A stretch of DNA of 64,000 nt, from positions 2,630,592 through 2,694,591 of the forward strand of contig JAJEKV010000098.1 in NCBI GenBank assembly GCA_021234155.1. The letters are read 5' to 3'. Origin of the DNA: Isoetes taiwanensis. Lineage: Eukaryota > Streptophyta > Lycopodiopsida > Isoetales > Isoetaceae. The notes under the pieces were generated by a model that was not told where the DNA came from, searched no databases, and saw only the letters and a program-made list of their open reading frames with translations. The stretch's first letter is position 1, and each line of letters opens with the position of its first letter. A program made the translations under genes and the position numbers. Below, in pieces: positions 1 to 32,246 of this stretch.

Positions 1-2336
1 TGGAGAACGCCCTGCAACTCATAATTCTATCTGGCCAAAAGAATTCTTCTGCTGACATAGCTCTTGCTGTTTTGGGTTTTAAAGGTGAGTTAAATGAGAT
101 TATTGATGATGCAAGGGTATATGCCCAGATGATTAATCGCTTCATTTTGAATTTTCCGAATTCATTGCATAATGTTGAAGAACAACGAAATTATGTTGAA
201 AACCTTAAAATCCAGGTAGTGTCGGACTGCAACAGTTTGCAATCTTCCATTGAAACTGCATATCAACAGGACAAGAAGACTCTAATACGAAATTGGAATA
301 ATAGCCCAGTGTCTAGATCTGTATGGTCCAGCTTGGTGCCTATGTTGATAAGTGCAGAGCCTAAAATCAGCGACACTGATTTGTCTAGACAGGAAAAGGT
401 GGGACAAGGTAGTTTTGGAACTGTTGAGACCGCACAGTGGCATAAACTGCCTGTAGCTGTGAAAAACTTTACTGATGTTCGTTATTTCCATGATGAATTA
501 GCAGTTTATAAGAACCTGCTGCATGCTGATTCTCCCCATATTGTACGCATGTTAGGTTACTCTACAAGTAATTTACTTGTATTAGAGCTTATGAGTAAGG
601 ATTTGAAAGAACATATTACAGGGCTAAAATCTCCACTTCCTCTAATTCAGTCACTTCACTTGATTCTCCAAATAGCCAAAGCATTGAGGCATTTACATAA
701 CATGGATGTTGTTCACCGGGACCTTAAACCCGCTAATGTATTGCTCAAAACTAGAAAGGATGGAAGTCTACTTATCAAACTGACTGATTTTGGCATCTCT
801 AAACACTCTTTTGGATTTGCAACATCCCATACATGCTTCCAGGGCACCATGATGTACATGGCACCAGAAATGCTGGCAGGATCAACAAAGTATTCAAGAA
901 AAGTTGATGTTTACAGTTTTGGTTTGATTAGTCTTGAGATTCTTGCAGGGAAGGTACGTCAGAATAGAGAAGAAGAATTAACTCTACCCAAAGACATTCC
1001 TAAGATGCTAATAAGTCTGATAAACTCTTGCATGGAATTTAATGATGTCAAACGTCCCGGCTTTGACGAAATTTGTGATAGCTTGTGGCTTGTGAAAGAA
1101 GAAGTCTTGGCCAAAGTCAAAATAAGTGGACTACGAGGAATAAGGATTGAAAACTTTCCAAGTGCTTCTGCCATTCATCCTAATCAAGATAATGCAAAAT
1201 CACGAAGGCACATGTTTCTTCCGATCATATCTCCGTGTTCTACTTTGACAGGTAAGAGAGCTATTTATGCTTTGTCACACAACGCTATCTGTAAGGGACG
1301 GTACTCAGTAACAGATTTGCCTGTAGACATTTTGGTTGATATTATGTTTGTTGGTTCCGTGCGTCTTATAGCCTCTGGACAATTAAAAATAGAGGATCGT
1401 TGGAATACTCTATTGAATCCATATGAAAGCATTGCACATGAAAATCGCCATCCTGAAGATCTAGGTATATTTGGGCAATTCAAGAAGTTGCTAAAGGATC
1501 AAGGAAAAAAGTTCAATCTCTATCTTTATATAGGAGGCTGGGACAATTCAGAGTGCTTCTCTACTGCCTTTTCTACTGCAACAACTCGCACTATATTCGT
1601 CAATTCTGTAGTGGGACTCTTGAAAAGCTACCCAATCTTCAATGGCCTGGTTATTGACTGGAGCTATATCAGTGACAACGGGAAGAATTATGGTAAGGCT
1701 GGCAATGTTACCAGTGAAAAAGATGTTGATAACTTGGTTCTTACTCTTGAGGTACTTAGAAAAGAACTACCTGTTGGTAGTTTTATGATTGCGTTAACTT
1801 GCACATCATCTGCTGCGCAGGAATGGCCAATAGAAAAGGCAATTCATTTGCTAGATCAGATCCATGTGAACCTTCCTGTCATTAGCAGTAAAATTACATC
1901 TCATAGATCGGCCTTGTATGCTAGTTCTTCCTTTGAACAGCATAATACAGATGAAAGTGTGAAGATGTACATCTCCCATGGGGTACCGTCTTCCAAGATT
2001 TTTATCGTGGGTTCACTAGATTCCATGAGATATGCAGACACTGATGGGATAGGCATGCCTGCTGGCAGTTGGAATTGGGACCCTGATTATAAGGGGTTGC
2101 CAGAAGCTGGATCTGAAGAGAAGTGGGATGATGAAGCTAAAGCAGCATATGCCCATCATCCGATGCGGAGGGTGATTGATACTTATGATAACAACAAGTC
2201 AATGGTTGAGAAGGCAAAGTATATTAAGGAAAATGACTTGGGAGGCATTCTGGTCCTCTGGGCCCATAATGATTTCCCTTACATGCATGAGCGTTCAACG
2301 ATGAAAGCCCTACACAAATATCTTACTCATAGTTGA
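1..2336 (+). CDS. Protein kinase fused to a C-terminal inactive GH18 (chitinase-like) domain, 5' partial
   Basis: The reading frame is open from base 3 to the TGA at 2334-2336, so the gene starts left of the window. Residues are numbered from the TTG at 72. Residues 1-100 look helical. The kinase domain follows: glycine loop VGQGSFG (110-116), VAVK lysine K131, catalytic HRDLKPAN with D217, DFG at 239-241, APE at 264-266, and a DVYSFG helix. All key kinase residues are present, so it should be active, probably a TKL-type Ser/Thr kinase. From about 395 to the end there is a GH18 barrel-like domain with YIGGW (486-490, the SxGG strand) and a terminal LVLWAHND strand (W730). The catalytic DxxDxDxE motif reads NGLVIDWS (524-531): only D529 remains and the catalytic Glu is Ser531, so hydrolysis is not expected but sugar binding is possible. 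I see no signal peptide or membrane segment in the visible part. A perfect-looking donor (AAAG/GTGAGT) lies near base 85, but the frame continues through it. Confidence 0.85.
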   Translation, partial: ENALQLIILSGQKNSSADIALAVLGFKGELNEIIDDARVYAQMINRFILNFPNSLHNVEEQRNYVENLKIQVVSDCNSLQSSIETAYQQDKKTLIRNWNNSPVSRSVWSSLVPMLISAEPKISDTDLSRQEKVGQGSFGTVETAQWHKLPVAVKNFTDVRYFHDELAVYKNLLHADSPHIVRMLGYSTSNLLVLELMSKDLKEHITGLKSPLPLIQSLHLILQIAKALRHLHNMDVVHRDLKPANVLLKTRKDGSLLIKLTDFGISKHSFGFATSHTCFQGTMMYMAPEMLAGSTKYSRKVDVYSFGLISLEILAGKVRQNREEELTLPKDIPKMLISLINSCMEFNDVKRPGFDEICDSLWLVKEEVLAKVKISGLRGIRIENFPSASAIHPNQDNAKSRRHMFLPIISPCSTLTGKRAIYALSHNAICKGRYSVTDLPVDILVDIMFVGSVRLIASGQLKIEDRWNTLLNPYESIAHENRHPEDLGIFGQFKKLLKDQGKKFNLYLYIGGWDNSECFSTAFSTATTRTIFVNSVVGLLKSYPIFNGLVIDWSYISDNGKNYGKAGNVTSEKDVDNLVLTLEVLRKELPVGSFMIALTCTSSAAQEWPIEKAIHLLDQIHVNLPVISSKITSHRSALYASSSFEQHNTDESVKMYISHGVPSSKIFIVGSLDSMRYADTDGIGMPAGSWNWDPDYKGLPEAGSEEKWDDEAKAAYAHHPMRRVIDTYDNNKSMVEKAKYIKENDLGGILVLWAHNDFPYMHERSTMKALHKYLTHS

Positions 2337-2683
2337 GGAAGCTCTCTAGGGGATTTTACGAGCATCTCTAAAGATAGTTGCTGGGTCTATTTGTATATTT
2401 TATTTCTGACCATAGATTTGGTGAATTTTTCATCAAAAACTAGTCTACAACTTCCAATGGTGCAAAATGAACAAATCAAGAAACCGTAAAACAATACAAG
2501 GCTAAGCTAATTTATCAGGCAAAGTGAACCATGGATATATAAAAACTTTAACTAATTCACATTTAGCGGCCATGGCCGAATCTTTAATTTTTTGCATTTA
2601 AGCCTTTGTACACATAGCTGCCATGGCCGAAGTAGCCATAGCCGAACCCAAGCCAAGCTTGGCACTCCGATTTGGACTTCAAT
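2337..2683. other. 3' flank of the kinase-GH18 gene, no further gene seen
   Basis: AT-rich sequence after the stop codon, without a supported coding frame. It presumably holds the 3' UTR and polyadenylation signals of the kinase gene, which I cannot place exactly. It runs directly into the GGGGAGGTTTCC repeat cluster. Confidence 0.5.
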
Positions 2684-3090
2684 GGAAACCTCCCCAATTT
2701 TCCACAGAAACCTCCCCAACTTTCCCTGGAAACCTCCCCAACTTTCCAGGCAAACCTGGGGAGGTTTTCATTTTGGAAAATAGGGGAAGTTTTCGTGGAA
2801 ACCTCCCCATGGAAACCTCCCCAACTTTCTTGAAAAACCAGGGGAGGTTTCCATATACGAAAACAGGGGAGGTTTCCATGGAAAATTGGGGAGGTTTCCC
2901 ATAAAAATTAGTAAAAAAAAGCCCTCCACGATCTGCCTTGATCCACGTGCTTCTTTAATATCCACCTTGATGGTTGTGTAAGCATGCCCTTATTAATTAC
3001 ACCCGCCTTTATTAATTACGGCCCTTTATTTTTTAAAATATTTTAATGAAACCTCCCCAATTTTTCGAGGAAACTAGGGGAGGTTGCATT
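2684..3090. repeat. Cluster of 11 GGGGAGGTTTCC motifs in both orientations (hAT-like subterminal repeats)
   Basis: About eleven copies of the 9-12-mer AACCTCCCC / GGGGAGGTTTCC occur in mixed orientation between 2684 and 3085, usually flanked by short AT-rich AATTTTCC or AACTTTCC. Copies in opposite orientation can pair, so the block can fold into several hairpins. Dense short motifs in both orientations next to an element end are typical of transposase-binding subterminal repeats in hAT transposons. A BED zinc-finger ORF follows at once, which supports this reading. The same motif clusters at 11.5-12.8 kb. Confidence 0.75.
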
Positions 3091-3137
3091 ATTTTGTGCA
3101 AAATTGTAATCCATTTCTTTCTCTTCTATCTCGTAGA

Positions 3138-3341
3138 ATGACAAGCAGAAAATCTGTTTGGTGGGACGAAGTTGATGTGGTAGGCCATAAATCTTGGATA
3201 TGCAAGTATTGCAAGGCCAACAAAACAGGTGGTCCAGATAGGGTGAGGGCGCACTTGATACACGAGGAGGGCAAAAACATAGTCTTTTGCATGAGGATTC
3301 TTGAAAAAAAAAAAAGCACTGTAACAAGCCTGCCGAGTTGA
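3138..3341 (+). pseudogene. BED-type zinc-finger fragment, probable start of a hAT transposase
   Basis: A 67-codon frame begins with ATGACAAGC. It carries a BED-like finger: an aromatic WW pair, C-x2-C (residues CKYC), then GGPDRVRAHL and a later H/C pair (LIHEEGKNIVFC). In plant hAT transposases this finger sits at the N-terminus and binds subterminal repeats. Such repeats lie immediately upstream here. The frame soon enters an A-run at about 3304-3314 and a stop, with no dimerisation (hATC) domain downstream, so only the 5' end survives. The ATGACAAG start is echoed at about 11871 next to the second repeat cluster, which suggests the same element family. Confidence 0.6.
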
Positions 3342-4845: not shown

Positions 4846-5356
4846 TTCTCCATTTTGGAAGGACAGAACAGAGTAAAATAATTACAATAGGAGCAGCCAA
4901 GAAATACAAGAGTAAAATAGAGAAAATCTGTCATGCACTTGGACAATACAGGATCTGCCGCAGGAAATATGCCTCTGCCCTTGAAGCATGATTAAAAAAA
5001 AAAAAAAGGGATTGAATAGCTTCTTATTTTCTTAGCTTGCAAAAGCGACCCATGCAAGAATGCGGGGCATGCAAAAGCAGTGAAATTGAGGGAGCGAATC
5101 AGATTGCCATCCGGATTCAAAAAACAGGGGGTTACGCAAAGGGCAAAAACAGGGGATCGCAGATGGCAAACACGGCGGCTCGGATTCAAAAGCAGGGGTT
5201 AAAAGCAAGGGCAAAAGCAGGGGGATCGCGGTGGCAAACCACGGGCCGCTTCCTCACCTTGCCCGGATCCACCATCATCGACACACCGCCATAGCACAAA
5301 AATTGCCAGGCGCCATAGCTCGACACGCACAAAAATCGCTCCCCATTTCCATGTTG
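4846..5356. other. Intergenic, short internal repeats
   Basis: No supported gene. The segment 5080-5240 has recurring CAGGGG, GCAAA and GGCAAA motifs in a loose tandem pattern. An A-run lies at about 4994-5006. Confidence 0.4.
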
Positions 5357-5472
5357 TAGGGGGATGCCCACCGGTCGCACTTTCCGGTGTGGCGGTGAAC
5401 CGCTCCCGGCTCCGCCGGTCGCGGGGCCCCACCGGTCCACACCGGAAAGTGCTCCCGGTGGGCATCCCCCTA
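5357..5472. repeat. GC-rich foldback repeat, 36-bp arms
   Basis: The left arm (5357-5392) and right arm (5437-5472) are reverse complements over 36 bp with two mismatches by eye, around a 44-bp GC-rich loop that is itself partly self-complementary. GC content is far above the AT-rich flanks. The unit could be a tiny foldback transposon or the stem of a structured RNA. No target duplication is evident. Confidence 0.85.
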
Positions 5473-6613
5473 TACATCTTTCCAGCTTAAAAATTCGTAA
5501 GGTCTTCTGACCGCAACTGCCTATATCACCTTCAACTGCTTCTTAGCCCAGCCCCATCTCAAGGAGCAAGCCCATATAATTATCTGATATTCTATTCTAT
5601 TCAAATTATTAACACGTTAATTTCAAACACAAGTTTCTACATATTTTCTTACTTTGTTTTCCCCAATCTCCTGCAACTGCACCTGGACTTACCTTGTGAA
5701 TGCTCTCTGCTCAATCCCAGCACAATTCAAGCATGTCCACCTCATGTTTTCCCTTTTATCTTATTATATTCAGTATTTTTTTCATTAGTAACATTTCTTT
5801 AATATGCAACCAACAAAACATTAACATTCAACAAATTAATTAACAACACAAAACAGGAAACCAACGAGAACCTATTTCTGATCTGAAATCTGGACTCCTA
5901 GTTCAATTAAATCTGTCTTGATTCCTTCATTTTGGCCCATTAACCTGCCAAATTGGCCTGTTCCAGGTCATATTAGGATGCCTCCAAAAGTTCTAGCTCC
6001 TTCTGTGACGACTCCATTGCAGGAAAAAGCCGTTGTTGCAGCCCATGCTTAGCAGTCAGATTCATCATGGTTACTTTTGGCTTACTCTAGACCCTCTCAT
6101 AGCAATCTTATCCACATAATTTCTTATCAGCCCATAAATTTAACAATAGCACAGCAGCATGTGCAAATCGAATCCATTCCTGGCAGCCTATGCAATCTCA
6201 TGGAATCCAATCTATTGAAACCAAACCCCACCTGATAAGAAAAAGATCCGATGCAGGTGAAAGCTCCAAGCTTTTGCCACCGATGGAATTCCTCTTATGC
6301 TATCCCGTCTCCAAAAAACTTCCAAAATTTCTTTCTCAATTTGCCTTCCTAGATCGTAAAGCTTTTGCTTATTTATAGTTCTATCCTACATGCATGTGTC
6401 TATCTTGCATGCATGCCAAACATGCATGTTCTACCTTGCATGCATGTCAAACTTGTATACACGTACATGAGTACATATACTGACCCATCAACGGGCCAGG
6501 ATCGTTACAGTCTCACCTTCTAAAATTTATCCCATGTCCTCATGGGTCGATTCCAAGAACTATCATGCTTACTTAATAAGTATACTAACAATCTGAAGCA
6601 AAATAAACAATTG
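5473..6613. other. Intergenic, no gene seen
   Basis: AT-rich sequence with no convincing coding frame. At about 6390-6465 the palindromic word GCATGCATG recurs several times with CTATC/CTACCTTGCATGCATG spacing, a small irregular tandem array. The 3' LTR expected for the copia element at 6.6-11.2 kb is not recognisable here. Confidence 0.4.
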
Positions 6614-7394
6614 CTATAGAAAATGAGATAAAATCAAGTTATTACAAATCTCACCTGGGATTCGTACTATAGAAGCTTCCTGAGCACCCTCACGTGGAGC
6701 TTCTGCAGCATAAATATACGTTTGATTTTGCGGAAGATCCATTATTGTGGCAGCTCTAACAAGTCCTCCATGAAGAAAGAAACAGCACCCAGTAGTGGAT
6801 CGGGAATAGGCTTTTGTACCATAACATGCATCAACCATAAGGGTTGAAGGGGATTGAATGAGAACCATGGAAGAAGGTGATGCTATGATGAGGGGTGGAT
6901 TGCAAATATCGGAGAATGCGTTTGGCTAGAGTCGAATGGTATTCAAGAAAATGATCATTGAATTGACAGAGAGTGATGACTGTATAAGACAAATTTGGGC
7001 GGATATATATCATGAGATACATTAGACTGCCAATAAGTGAGCGAAAAGGCAAATCAGGAGATAAATTAAGGGATGCCATATCTTCAAAAAGGTTAACATT
7101 TGGTTCCATATGAGTGGCAACAAGGCGAGCATCCAACATATGGAAACGAGTCAGAATTGTTTGGGTGTAAAGAGCCTGATATAGGTGAAGGATATGGTTG
7201 GGGAGAACATGACAGATGTGTAGGCTAAGAAAGAAGGCAGCAGTACCAAGATGTTTCATGGAGAATTGAGTTGAGGAGGGAATAAATGTGGCCAAGGTCT
7301 GTGTGATGGTTGCGGAACAAGAGTATGTCATCAACCACAGGAAGATAATGAGAATTACAGGTGATTTATGATTTAGAGCTAACAGCAACAGCAC
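6614..7394 (-). pseudogene. Copia RT C-terminal half and RNase H remnant
   Basis: The minus-strand frame 7394-6831 carries the RT thumb: a SLIGSLMYLM...RPNLSY stretch (canonical GSLMYL...RPDI) followed by RILRYLQST. Frame 6868-6614 continues with STTGCCFFL, the RNase H-type end of copia pol. The VVDD version of the catalytic YVDD box is encoded at about 7331-7320, in a different frame from the downstream thumb, so at least one frameshift separates them. Confidence 0.85.
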
Positions 7395-8354
7395 AAAGAA
7401 ATAAATATGTTGATGCTCAATTTGATCAGCTGTGGAATTCTATTGGACATTTTTATGGTTGCTTTAATTTATTTAAGTTAAATTGTCATGTTGATAACAC
7501 TAATTCTGATTCTATTTTTCCTAGAGTATCTCTGGAACTGCAAGTACAAACTTGACATGCAATTTGATGAAACTGAGGCTTCCAAATACATTGGTCTTCC
7601 CCTGTCAGAAAGGCACGAGATTCAGAGTGAAGTGCAAAACCAAATGGATTACAGTTTTTGGACAAGTCATGTAAAGGGAAAGCTATATGAGAGCATAGAA
7701 GAAATTCCAGGGAAAGAGGTTGAGTGGCCTAAGGAATTCTGCAGAGAGACCCACTTAATGTATGTGCTATGGTGGTTTATGTATGCTAACAGTATGGACA
7801 TGACAGATAGGCAATTCGAGTTTTATAGGGAATGCTACTACTACCATAGGGGCAGAGCAGATTGTTATGGCACTCTTATCCACCTTCATTCCACATGTAA
7901 CTCAAACAGGCTGATCGAGGTTGTTGATTGGGGAAAGAATTTTATTCCTATACTTTATCCTCAGTTTAGGGACCACTTCCACTTTCTGGACACCTACAAT
8001 TTCTGATCCCTGCTTCATCTGTCCATAACTTGGTTTTTTGTGCAGATTTTTGGCTCAAGGAATCTACAGGAAATGTATTTGGCTGCATCAGCAAAAAGTT
8101 ACAAGACCTTGCTCCTTCTGAAAGTGCTCCTGTCTTCAACATCTACATCCTTATTATGTTGCAACACTTTATGTTTTTGTCTATATCAAGTACTCTACAT
8201 ATTGCTGCTACTATTTACATGGGCTTCACCAAGTCCAAAAAAATATTTCCTTATGTTACATATTGCTGACTCCTCAGTCATGCAATTCTCTATTTTTGTA
8301 CTTATTCTCCATAATTAATGATTAAAAAGCTTCATTCCTTCAAAAAAAAAAAAA
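7356..8354 (+). pseudogene. Processed retrocopy with poly(A) tail and 14-bp target-site duplication
   Basis: The insert ends in an A-run (about 8342-8356) and is bounded by AAGATAATGAGAAT at 7342-7355 and again at 8355-8368. This shows LINE-type target-primed insertion of a polyadenylated RNA. It holds a 172-codon frame (7488-8006), preceded by an overlapping frame at 7361-7555 that looks like the same protein before a frameshift. The encoded protein is rich in Trp, Tyr and His (for example KEVEWPKEFCRETH and YRECYYYH) and I do not recognise it. A motif DQLWNSIGHFYGCF in the first frame resembles DKSWDALGSFQGFY in the poly(A)-tailed unit at 40.4-41.2 kb, so both may derive from one gene family. 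The rest of the two proteins does not visibly align. Confidence 0.85.
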
Positions 8355-8472
8355 AAGATAATGAGAATGAAGGAGCCTGTTTGGCAAAGATAAACACTTG
8401 TGTCTACGGGAGAAGGCTGAAAATGAAGATCTCGAAGGCAGGAATCAAAACATTGAAACCAAACTCGTGAAG

Positions 8473-9024
8473 CTAGGTTGAGACCGTAAATAGCCTTCTG
8501 TAATCTCCATACATAGTTAGAAAATTTGAGATCCTAAAAACCACAGAGGGCTGCTTCATAAAAAGCTCTTCTTGAAGATCGCCATGGAGGAATGATGTAT
8601 GCACATCGAGCTGAAAAATCTCCCAATCATGTTTAGCTGCACGAGCAAGAATCGTCCAAAGACTGGTCATATGAATCATGGGCGAGAAAGTTTCATCATA
8701 GTCAACACCGTGGATTTGAGCGAATCTACGAGCTACAAGACATGCCTTGTAACGCGCGAGAGATCCATCTTCGTTGAACTTCTTAGAAAAACTCCACTTT
8801 GAATCGACAACTTTTCTGCCAGAAGGAAGGGGCACTAAATCCCAAACATGGTTTTGTTTCATAGAAGACAATTCTTCAGGGGCAACCTTGTGCCAATGAG
8901 AAGTATCTGGTCCATTTCGTGCAGCATGAAGCATAGCAGGAGTACCATGGGTGGCAAGGCAGATCCATTCAACAATACTAATTTCAGCATTTTCAATGAT
9001 TTTAAGGGTGGAGTGTGCATGCAC
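8473..9024 (-). pseudogene. Copia reverse transcriptase N-terminal half
   Basis: The 183-codon frame includes the typical copia sequence: VWDLVPLPSGRKVVDSKW, FNEDGSLARYKACLVARRF, GVDYDETFSPM and DVHTSFLHGDLQEE. Its C-terminal end is followed on the minus strand by the retrocopy insert. The DVxxAFLHGxL segment carries Thr-Ser in place of the usual Ala. RT would be non-functional because of the downstream disruption. Confidence 0.92.
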
Positions 9025-9403
9025 TGGCTGCGAGGGAGAGAAGAGGTAGATTGAGAGGAATTAGAAGCTACAAAACTGAGAGGAGTAAGAAGCTACAAGT
9101 TGCTCGGATCGCACAACATGTGTTTCTATAACAGATGGTTCAATTGGAGGGCAATGATCAACAAGAGGAGGTGTATCCGGAGCAAGAGCAGCATGAACAT
9201 GATATTCTACCTCTTCATTAATGAGAGATAGGCCAGGAGGATCAGGGACCAGCATTTGCCGATCAATAAAATCTGCATTTTCTTCAATACCAAGAATCTC
9301 GGATTCATCAAAATGGACATCAGAACTGATAAGTACCTGATTCGTGGAAGGATCCTAGCATTTGTAACCCATATGATTTGGAGAATACTCGATAAAGGGC
9401 ATT

Positions 9404-10030
9404 TCACACTCTTATGGTCCAAATCTTTGGGAATTTGAACATAAAAGTGCTACCAAAAACTCGCAAGTGAGAGGCATCAGGCTTTGATCCATACCATACT
9501 TTGTGAGGTGTAGAGCTAGGAGGAGCTATTATAGGAGCAAAATCTTGAGTATGAACTACAGTAGCAACCACTTCCTCCCTGAATTCACGTCCCAAATACC
9601 TTTGAACTAACAAACTCTTGGCAGCTTCACATATTGTCCGATTTTTTCTCTCAGCAACACCTTTTTGTTGAGGGGTGTGCCAAGTTGTGATTTGTCTGTG
9701 AATACCAGCTGCATTGTATATGTCCTGGAAAAGGTGTCCAAGAAACTCACCATCGCCCTCTGTTTGAAGACAATTTATGGTGTAGTTCACTTGATTCTCA
9801 GCTGACGCTTCCGAAAGCTTATATAGATTTCCAAAACGATGCCCCTTGGTAAGTGGATTCGCTGGTAGAATAACATCCTTGGGAAACAGAAGAACAACAT
9901 TATCAGTGAAGACTGAAATCACATGGTCTGTCAGCTTTGCCACAAACAATAGATTTTTGTGGAGTTTGGGAACCAAGAGAGCATTTGAAAGTGCTGCCTC
10001 CTTGCCATGAAGAAGTGGAAGGTGAAACAC
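9404..10030 (-). pseudogene. Copia integrase region
   Basis: The 208-codon frame runs from a pre-integrase segment (ALLVPKLHKNLLFVAKLTD) into the core, with TDGEFLGHLF-like sequence (here TEGDGEFLGHLF), GIHRQITTWHTPQQKGVAERKNRT and HLRVFGSTFMFK. The zinc-binding and first catalytic part between these seems shortened, so the DDE set is incomplete. It lies between gag and RT, as expected for Ty1/copia. Confidence 0.9.
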
Positions 10031-10148
10031 TCCTTTTGCAGTGATTGATACATGGGCAGTAGAATCAAATTGGACACCGCCTTGAACTGGTTCAAATCTC
10101 TGAGAAGTTGGGGATACTTAACCGTAATAGAAGTGCATGCAGAATCAA

Positions 10149-11124
10149 CTATGAGAGCAGGAGGCTGATCTCAAGATGAAAACCTTCTTCAACAATAGAA
10201 TCTGCTGCAACAAGGCATGCTTCTTCAAGATTTGGATTATTCTCTGGAAGAAGATCTAAAATTCCTGAGATGCATGCTTCTTCAAGAAGGCAATTTTCTT
10301 CTTTAAGGCTAAGGCCATCCACAAAGTGTGCCAATTCTTCTGGTTTTTTCTTAGTGGGAGCAGCTGGTGCACCATGTGGTTCGCTTGGACATTGCGGAGC
10401 ATAATGACCAAAACCTAAACAATTACTGCATTGGTTCTTGCGCAATGGAGTTCCATCTCAAGCCAAAGGACGTTGATTTTGAGATGCTGGAGATCCTTGG
10501 AAGCGTGTTTGGATCACAAAAGCTTGCTCATGTTTGGCCCGATCTCCCCTTTGCTTATGCATAGTGGCAAGCTCAACTAAATCCTCAACAATTTCATCCC
10601 ATGTTGCAGTCTTGCGAGATGTCATTAAAAGCTCTACAGTGCTACCCCATGTTGCAGGAAGAGAGGTATACAATCTAAGCTTCTTATGTGGATTAGACAG
10701 AGCATAGTCTTTCCCAGCATTCGCCAACAAATCAAACTTCTCTTGAAGCTTGGCAATCCGGATGTCCTGTCCATCAAGCTCAATATGAATCTGCATCAAT
10801 TCAACTTCAAAGCGACTTCCATATCTAGTTTGGAGAAAATCCCAGATATGTTTGCTGCCTTTTTCAAGTTCACCTTGAACAATCTGCAACAAATCCTTTG
10901 ACAAACACAAGGCTATGCAAGCCAAGGCTCCAGAGCAGAAGTGCTTTCTGTTGAGCCAGATCATCTTTCTTACTAATGACTGGCTTTGGCTCACTGCCTT
11001 CAACAATCTCCCAAAGCAATTCAGCCTTGAGGTACAATATCGTCATCATCCTCCATCCATCGAATCCTTTTCCTTCAAATGTTGATGGCTGCAGATGCAA
11101 GATATTTGAACTAGTGTTTGCCAT
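10149..11124 (-). pseudogene. Copia gag with CCHC zinc knuckle
   Basis: Frame 11124-10870 starts MANTSSNILHLQPSTFEGKG and contains the FDGWRMMTILYLK gag start motif. Frame 11006-10458 continues through LYTSLPATWGSTVELLM. Frame 10445-10149 gives the zinc knuckle CSNCLGFGHYAPQC (C-x2-C-x4-H-x4-C). Three frames are needed, so frameshifts are present. It is the first coding region after the PBS, as expected. Confidence 0.9.
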
Positions 11125-30247: not shown

Positions 30248-32246
30248 TCATCGTTGAGAGCGACGGGTGCCTTTCCTAGCCACAGGCTCCCACCAAGAAA
30301 CAAAAACCTCGTTATAATGAGGGGCAGTGGGATCTTGTATTGGATCCTCTTCCGCATACGCAATCCATGTAGGACATGCATCTGCGGGTCTTACAAGAAG
30401 AAACATACCTTTCTGTACATCTTGGTATGGATCAAATATTTCCACTGCGTTCTTGGGTTTATCCTTAGCAGGTCCAACGAAGCCAGTCGGAGCGTCATAT
30501 CGATCAATCTGAATAGATTCAGGCTCGTCAAGCATAACTTGCCTTGTGCGGGGCCAGAAGTTCAGAATTTCTGCATTGCCTGGGGGTATTTCCCCTAGAA
30601 CACGCATCACTTCGCACCAGTAGTCTATGACCTCGTTCATGTAGGTATTGGACCACGAGTTCACACCAGCCCTGGAGATATTAGCCCAATGCACCATGTA
30701 CTTCGCAATGGACGACCTCAATGCTCCTATGTCTTTGAGACTTGCATATGGCTTAACAGTCTTGGGCGACCCAGTCGGTATCATTGGGAAACCATTGTCA
30801 TCTGCTTTCCACATCCGAATACCCTTCTCTGGCAACCATTCTCTATGACCAGGTCTCATCTTGTAATACATTACTGGCCATCCATCATTCATGCAAAACT
30901 TAAACAATAACGGCTCCAGGTGACCAACCAAACGATCCTTCTTATCAGGAATGTATCCTTTGACGAACCCCTTCCAATCCGGAACCTCGGCAACAAGGTA
31001 TGGCGTTGGTGCCTTCGTGCTACATTCTCGGAACAGTTGCATTAGTTCAGGAAGAGTTAGAGCATCAGACCTGCGCATTAATGTGGAGTAGTTACCGAAT
31101 AGTGCATCAATGTCATCATGAGTGTGGCCTACCATCATGAAGCCCAGCTGTATCTGATCAAATACACCCAACCACACAAGATAGGATAGATAAGAGAAGA
31201 GATATCTGTTCTTATTCTGCCCAGCGCAATTGTCTAGTTGCAAGTATAGTCGCCTAGGTAACATCTTAAAATGAGATGCTTCCTTAGCAGGTGGTACAAA
31301 GTCTTGCCCAGTGATGTTGCCTTTTTTTGTCCTCAACCCCGCACTGTTGAGGAGTGCACTGACCCACATGCCTTGAGGACGTCCTTCTTCTGGGAGGTAT
31401 CCTCTAGTGTTTTGATAGCATGATTCAATGAACCAACATGAAAGTTTGAATCGTCCTTCCAAAGGTCTAGTGAGAAATGTCCCAATGCACCTGTGCCTGG
31501 CCATGCATCAGTGCACCAGTCACACTAACTTTCAAGCGTTCACCTCTCCATACTGACTTTGCGAGTTTCTCTAGTCTTGGAATCATGGTCTTGTTTTGGT
31601 CCATTTTATCATGTATAATGGTAAGCGCCTGTTCTGGTGATCGATGGGACAGAGCTCTCCATGACCAGTACAAAGCTCCTACAAGAGATCTGGGCAGTCA
31701 TGTGTGCCTTCCTTTCAATCTGCAACTCTCTTCTCTCCCTTGGATCTCTTGTCTTAGCCATTTTTTCTTTGATTACAATACATGTGTTGCACTTAGAGAA
31801 AGCTATCCTTTTCGCTATTGCAACCTCGTTATGATCCTGCTTCCACCCACGTGAAAATGATGAGTGAGAGACATGTTTGCCTGTCATCTCCTTCACATTG
31901 GCGTTCACCTCTTGAAGAATGTCCTTCTTGGTTAGAACAGAGGGGAGCCTCTTCACATTCTCTCTTACACATTGATTATTGATTTTTTCGATCGTGGGGC
32001 ATTGTCAGCGTTCTCATCTATGTACATAGACAGCACGGCCTTCCCTGCTAGAGTGTGAGACCTTGGTTTTTTCGTGCCCATGTTCCCATGTTCAGCTACT
32101 CTGTGACCATCAAGGAAAAGTCTTCGCCATTTATAGAAAGTGGACATTGGAATACCATACGCTATATGCCATGCTTTCACACAAACCTGCTTGTTATTTA
32201 GCATGAGCATCTTCACCTGTCCGTTCTCCGAACAAACATCTAACAT
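30248..32246 (-). pseudogene. DUF7869-type mobile-element protein, nearly complete, two frameshifts
   Basis: Three minus-strand frames make one protein: 32246-31965 (KAWHIAYGIPMSTFYKW and HGNMGTKKPRSHTL), 31956-31609 (SKCNTCIVIKEK, a Cys pair) into 31673-31467 (IIHDKMDQNKTMIPR), then 31504-30248, a 418-codon frame. The last has LQLDNCAGQNKNR (31247-31209) and VGHTHDDIDALFG (31134-31096), the signature I recall for DUF7869, plus a PDWKGFVKGYI and a YGL-like tail. The spaced Asp residues suggest an RNase H-like nuclease fold, which would fit a transposase, but this is inference. A second, more decayed copy lies at 55.4-58.6 kb. The long unbroken frame implies recent activity. Confidence 0.8.

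Follow-up and report, generated by a model that had tools for sequence, protein, structure and literature searches.

A single-exon kinase-GH18 fusion gene without signal peptide or membrane span in Isoetes taiwanensis, with a probable MLKL-type N-terminal domain and a degenerate C-terminal barrel

In the window (the whole 64,000-nucleotide stretch analysed here, G000:C1109:2630592-2694591, from the lycophyte Isoetes taiwanensis, a spore-bearing aquatic quillwort), an open reading frame at the left edge joins a protein kinase to a GH18 domain with a degenerate catalytic motif, and the locus raises the question of whether the two belong to one protein and, if so, what such a GH18 domain may do behind a kinase. 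The fusion had been proposed in an earlier sequence-only reading, and both halves were recovered with Pfam (Pkinase, window residues 129-363; Glyco_hydro_18, window residues 451-751). The features of the gene within the window are as follows.

3-2336, + strand: fusion-gene open reading frame inside the window, 777 codons, open off the left window edge, with a TGA stop at 2334-2336
3..371, + strand: remainder of a putative N-terminal helical domain (protein residues 71-193 of 847), from profile matches to AtMLKL3 and low-confidence predicted helices
387..1091, + strand: protein kinase domain (PF00069, E 1.8e-41)
462-464, 720-722 and 786-788, + strand: kinase catalytic codons for Lys, HRD Asp and DFG Asp, respectively, from the paralogue alignment
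1353..2255, + strand: predicted GH18 (beta/alpha)8 barrel without catalytic residues, bacterial/fungal type (PF00704, E 1.4e-37, model and fold match)
1641..1664, + strand: degenerate catalytic motif NGLVIDWS in place of DGxDxDWE, from the sequence

The 5' end was taken from the neighbouring sequence, as the sequence-only reading had advised. With the upstream sequence (L009) added, the stop-to-stop frame comprises 863 codons, and the full open reading frame starts at an ATG 208 bp upstream of window base 1 (G000:C1109:2630384; start context AACAATGG), giving a protein of 847 aa from one exon, with residues 1-70 encoded in the added 208 bp. The homologous methionine is used by all 15 aligned kinase-GH18 paralogues. 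Directly before the homologous ATG, paralogue L014 and the split copy L013 carry an in-frame TGA with no AG acceptor between, so that no upstream coding exon would fit there, which makes a signal peptide encoded in such an exon very unlikely. Hydropathy analysis found no membrane span in the window protein (19-residue maximum 1.78), in line with what had been read from the letters, and no signal peptide at its N-terminus; across 15 family members, a membrane span was absent from 14 and a signal peptide from all. A hidden upstream exon encoding a signal peptide or membrane span, an alternative named in the earlier reading, is contradicted at the DNA level by the hydropathy and by the TGA of L014 and L013, and was rejected. 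The one exception, L024, has a hydrophobic stretch (residues 526-544) formed by a short repeat inside a tandem duplication, which is not common to the family. The duplication (L024:2408-2600) places this strongly hydrophobic stretch between kinase and GH18, and this copy, if translated, could be a type II membrane protein.

The window protein was compared with the genome (1,658,258,908 bases, 1110 contigs), in which PF00704 has 109 matches. At least 15 uninterrupted kinase-GH18 frames of 846-950 aa were found (on C1109, C908, C1056, C1018, C1034, C1075, C979, C917, C1093, C1110, C1090 and C1106), together with about 15 additional split or broken copies, often clustered (e.g. four on C1110 within 92 kb); these counts were taken frame by frame and are lower bounds. 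Recurrence of the fusion in at least 15 uninterrupted frames is far beyond chance and excludes a mis-annotation. The alternative of two separate genes joined by mis-reading, also raised beforehand, is contradicted at the DNA level by the single-exon frame and by the same fusion in many paralogues, and was rejected; the window gene is a single-exon kinase-GH18 fusion with neither signal peptide nor membrane span. About 90 or more genomic places carry the N-terminal-plus-kinase part, many of them in frames of 430-600 aa that are too short for a GH18 domain, which makes the fusion genes one subset within a larger kinase family.

Frames of 700-1030 aa with the N-terminal-plus-kinase module and no PF00704 match were also seen on C1079 (e.g. 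6723101-6725005), C418, C2:33697-35124, C1093:4106893 and C907:45379796, and some of those on C1079 match the first third of GH18 only, up to a YPIFNG motif; judging from these frames, other C-terminal partners of the module may exist.

The nearest known kinase-GH18 protein is tobacco CHRK1, a membrane receptor in which a GH18 domain without its catalytic Glu is extracellular and N-terminal to the kinase. The joining of a kinase to a GH18 domain lacking this Glu is common to both, and the opposite domain order pointed out in the earlier reading was borne out: in the window family the kinase comes first and GH18 is C-terminal, there is no membrane span, the N-terminal domain is different, and the GH18 domain is not of plant type. 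The CHRK1 layout of signal peptide, extracellular N-terminal GH18, membrane span and cytosolic kinase is not that of the window protein. No published HeLo-kinase-GH18 or cytosolic kinase-GH18 protein was found in the open-access literature searched, which is no proof of absence.

The kinase domain retains the glycine loop, VAIK Lys, alpha-C Glu, HRD Asp, the following Asn and APE Glu in 15/15 paralogues, and the DFG Asp in 14/15 (Asn in L016), and the kinase of the window protein is probably catalytically competent. The catalytic residues had been listed correctly as present under numbers (K131, D217) that are wrong by 23: the VAVK Lys is window residue 154, the HRD Asp 240 and the DFG Asp 262, corresponding to 224, 310 and 332 in the full protein. 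TKL-type kinases, TAK1 and RAF among them, and plant MLKLs are the best PDB relatives of the domain. A fold search with the kinase model had kinase domains only among the matches listed and was uninformative on the N-terminus.

The N-terminal region of about 190 residues, whose resemblance to the plant MLKL HeLo domain was absent from the sequence-only reading, as was the multicopy family, had no Pfam model above cut-off, and weak single matches (MCAfunc, DUF7792; E about 0.1) were not counted as evidence. With full-length and HeLo-kinase profiles, MLKL2 and MLKL3 (6ka4, 6lba) align in one stretch from residue 14-22 to residue 512-520; for the other kinases listed, the alignment is confined to the kinase domain. 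With the window-clade N-terminal profile alone, AtMLKL3 (6lba) ranked second of 177,635 PDB sequences (E 1.7), two sequences being retrieved at E up to 10, one of them 6lba, and the N-terminus of this clade is collinear with AtMLKL3 residues 11-92 (INxxQC, REL..V...G...V..C). Other N-terminal profiles tried against the PDB sequences did not find MLKL. Because MLKL was already the hypothesis, the 6lba match appears much stronger than an E of 1.7 suggests, though it came from one of several N-terminal profiles tried. The model of the window protein has helices in the N-terminal part at low confidence, residues 1-70 lying outside the modelled sequence, and the kinase follows directly after the HeLo-like/brace region, as in plant MLKLs. 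Taken over these profile alignments, the region probably comprises a four-helix HeLo domain of the plant MLKL type and a brace.

Plant MLKLs (Arabidopsis MLKL2/3, PDB 6ka4/6lba; wheat/Aegilops Pm13) have a helical HeLo-like domain, then a brace, then a kinase, as the window protein probably does, and like it they lack a membrane span. The Arabidopsis MLKLs are pseudokinases, while in wheat mildew resistance is conferred by Pm13, a HeLo protein whose kinase is of the active type; HeLo, brace and kinase are all three needed for this resistance (PMC10951266). Pm13 resembles the window family in its intact kinase residues and differs from it in having seven exons (PMC10951266), compared with one in the window gene, and no C-terminal GH18 barrel. 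What is added here to known MLKL-like kinases is probably the dead C-terminal GH18 domain, and the MLKL-like N-terminal domain shifts the likely output of the window protein to cell-death/immune signalling.

Retention of the GH18 fold, expected from the sequence-only reading, was confirmed by a model of the barrel built with bacterial relatives as alignment, which is complete (mean pLDDT 80.8, pTM 0.87) and matches solved chitinases (Z 34.8, rmsd 2.7, 342 residues aligned). The best PDB sequence match is Paenibacillus ChiW (262 bits over two domains, about 133 each), followed by scores of about 118 bits for fungal entries and 89 bits for the single plant-labelled GH18 entry seen. In a prokaryote genome scan, relatives of about 30% identity came mostly from Paenibacillus, other Bacillota and Bacteroidota. 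The motifs WDDEAKAPY and YD..S...K are common to the family and to ChiW and related bacterial GH18 domains; WDDEAKAPY and other motifs shared with bacteria are missing from the class V chitinases of I. taiwanensis, and the family GH18 is without class V features. Since ChiW and fungal entries score higher and the shared motifs are absent from class V, a bacterial or fungal ancestry appears likelier than descent from plant class V chitinases. ChiW itself differs from the window GH18, which has lost catalytic and cleft residues and is fused to a kinase. Two GH18-only relatives (C1100:12165467-12166594 and C959:1364416-1365579) show about 50% identity to the window GH18 and PF00704 scores above those of fused copies, with DxxDxDxE absent by pattern scan, and are possibly close to the ancestral unfused form.

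The loss of three of the four acidic positions of the catalytic motif was correctly noted before: in NGLVIDWS, D1 is replaced by N, D2 by V and E by S, and D3 is kept. Of 18 GH18 copies, 17 have one of nine other residues in place of the catalytic Glu, none retains D2, and 15 retain D3. Whole-genome motif scans found an intact DGxDxDWE, or a looser form, at no locus of the fusion clade, the same scans matching secreted chitinases; a shorter degenerate-motif pattern matched 16 family loci and one further locus (C942), which looks like a chance match. By its residues, the GH18 half is catalytically dead.

The losses extend to the cleft. The β6 MxYD is lost in 18/18 copies and the β8 Trp in 16/18, the Ser of SxGG (β3) is variable, and nearly all of the cleft residues (β2 Phe, β3 Ser, β6 MxYD, β7 Tyr/Arg, β8 Trp) are gone, with replacements that differ between paralogues; in the window gene, Leu stands in for the β8 Trp and Pro for the Tyr of MxYD. 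These losses and differences imply that no shared chitin site is conserved in the family, and they bear on the proposal, made in the earlier reading, of a cytosolic chitin or chito-oligosaccharide lectin wired to a kinase, like YKL-40 or CHRK1. GH18 lectins exist, the fold is retained here and the relatives are chitinases. The sugar-site residues β8 Trp, MxYD, β3 Ser and β2 Phe, however, are gone in most or all copies, each replaced differently, the window gene included, and free chitin is, to our knowledge, not expected in the cytosol. The pocket is not that of a GH18 lectin, in which the Glu is lost and the aromatic sugar cleft kept, and a sensor of chitin or glycan specifically is therefore disfavoured and, on our estimate, improbable.

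Variability was compared between cleft segments at the eight strand ends, picked from strand-end motifs before the entropy calculation, and the rest of the barrel. Mean entropy in the GH18 domain of the fusion family is 1.96 in the cleft segments versus 1.16 elsewhere, and in 14 active bacterial relatives 0.89 versus 1.63 (difference in pattern, p 1e-14): within the family barrel, variability peaks at the former substrate cleft, opposite to what the active bacterial relatives show. Pairwise omega over five independent pairs was 0.67 for the N-terminal part, 0.48 for the kinase, 0.60 for GH18 outside the cleft and 0.97 for the cleft. Parsimony on the GH18 tree gave 0.49 outside the cleft and 0.93 at strict cleft positions, 14 single positions picked from general knowledge of Serratia ChiB. 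The kinase and the GH18 scaffold are under purifying selection, for the latter with neutrality rejected at a P of 5e-51. Neither estimate shows clear positive selection at the cleft; at an omega of about 0.93, the variation is accounted for equally well by neutral drift and by diversifying selection, and the cleft would be either released from constraint or diversifying. These data argue against a conserved sugar site common to the family.

Selection on the scaffold also bears on the alternative that the family was amplified by duplication and is decaying, with the GH18 tail as evolutionary debris behind a functional kinase. About half of the fusion copies are split or broken, and there are many kinase-only frames of the same family, as such decay would leave; set against this are the long uninterrupted frames, the purifying selection on the scaffold, and a methionine, linker and C-terminus (HDHLTHG) that are conserved in the family, and we consider decay highly improbable.

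A scaffold held for structural or regulatory reasons (dimerisation, or autoinhibition of the kinase or HeLo), with an unused cleft drifting neutrally, is a more serious alternative, which we nevertheless regard as rather unlikely. It fits the near-neutral cleft codons beside a constrained scaffold, and the many family-only conserved columns outside the cleft (SG 528-529, FKK..DQG 563-571, YPIF 613-616, E806). It is unusual, however, for drift to bring polar, charged and bulky residues into the interior of a barrel and leave the fold intact, and some close pairs differ mainly at the cleft (for L014/L015, cleft dN 0.203 vs 0.036 in the rest of GH18). This pair (C1075, C979) has synonymous divergences of 0.33 for the N-terminal part but only 0.04 for GH18 without the cleft, a difference suggesting that paralogues have exchanged the GH18 half by gene conversion or recombination.

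The reading we prefer, at an even chance, is a cytosolic MLKL-like kinase whose dead C-terminal GH18 domain is a recognition or bait module governing the kinase/HeLo output. The protein would have four parts: an N-terminal HeLo-type bundle with brace, a competent kinase, a short linker and the C-terminal GH18 barrel. The barrel, without hydrolysis and without the canonical sugar cleft, would recognise a protein or other varying ligand, probably not chitin; engagement of GH18 by a pathogen protein or other such ligand would switch the kinase and free the HeLo bundle for defence directed at the membrane or for cell death. We infer both the ligand and the output, and draw the immune role from analogy with the integrated domains of plant immune receptors and with XIP, likenesses that also suggest the bait function itself. 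XIP is a dead plant GH18 that binds fungal xylanases, and DxDxE is lacking in part or whole in 20/34 rice GH18 genes (PMC12329526). XIP-type xylanase inhibitors, like the window family, form a multigene family of GH18 barrels without DxDxE, but are stand-alone and of plant type (PMC12329526), whereas the window GH18 is a fused, predicted-cytosolic domain of bacterial/fungal type. The Pm13 and XIP precedents favour the cytosolic sensor-executioner reading.

Kinase fusion proteins and NLRs with integrated domains likewise combine an active-type kinase with an unrelated domain in clustered, copy-number-variable families; the window family differs in lacking NB-ARC or LRR, and GH18 was not among their partners in the open-access literature searched. 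A bolder form of the preferred reading, which we offer tentatively and hold doubtful, is that the dead GH18 is a hypervariable recognition module acting via an active kinase on a HeLo cell-death domain, and that the family constitutes an NLR-independent class of intracellular sensors; as part of it, the eight strand ends, which formerly bound chitin and now differ between paralogues, would be comparable to the variable surface of immune receptors. Plant MLKLs are known in the role of executioner and, in the case of Pm13, in that of resistance protein; their triggering is unclear, so that a covalently attached sensor-like domain, if true, would be a direct handle on it. Lycophytes would then build intracellular receptor-like proteins outside the NLR scheme, and the theme of a dead GH18 as recognition domain would extend from secreted inhibitors to intracellular signalling.

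Elsewhere in the window, positions 2660-3300 hold many direct and inverted copies of GAAACCTCCCCAA adjoining a BED zinc finger-like frame (SRKSVWWDEVD...CKYCKANKTGG...RVRAHL), probably a degenerate hAT-like transposon. A long inverted repeat at 5350-5480 (GGGGATGCCCACCGG...CCGGTGGGCATCCCC) is perhaps a small transposable element. On the minus strand, broken Copia-type retrotransposon-like frames with gag-like, integrase and reverse transcriptase stretches lie at 6831-11042, and a 419-codon frame at 30248-31507 with LQLDNCAGQNKNRYLFSYLSYLV and GHTHDDIDALF motifs probably encodes a transposon-related protein.
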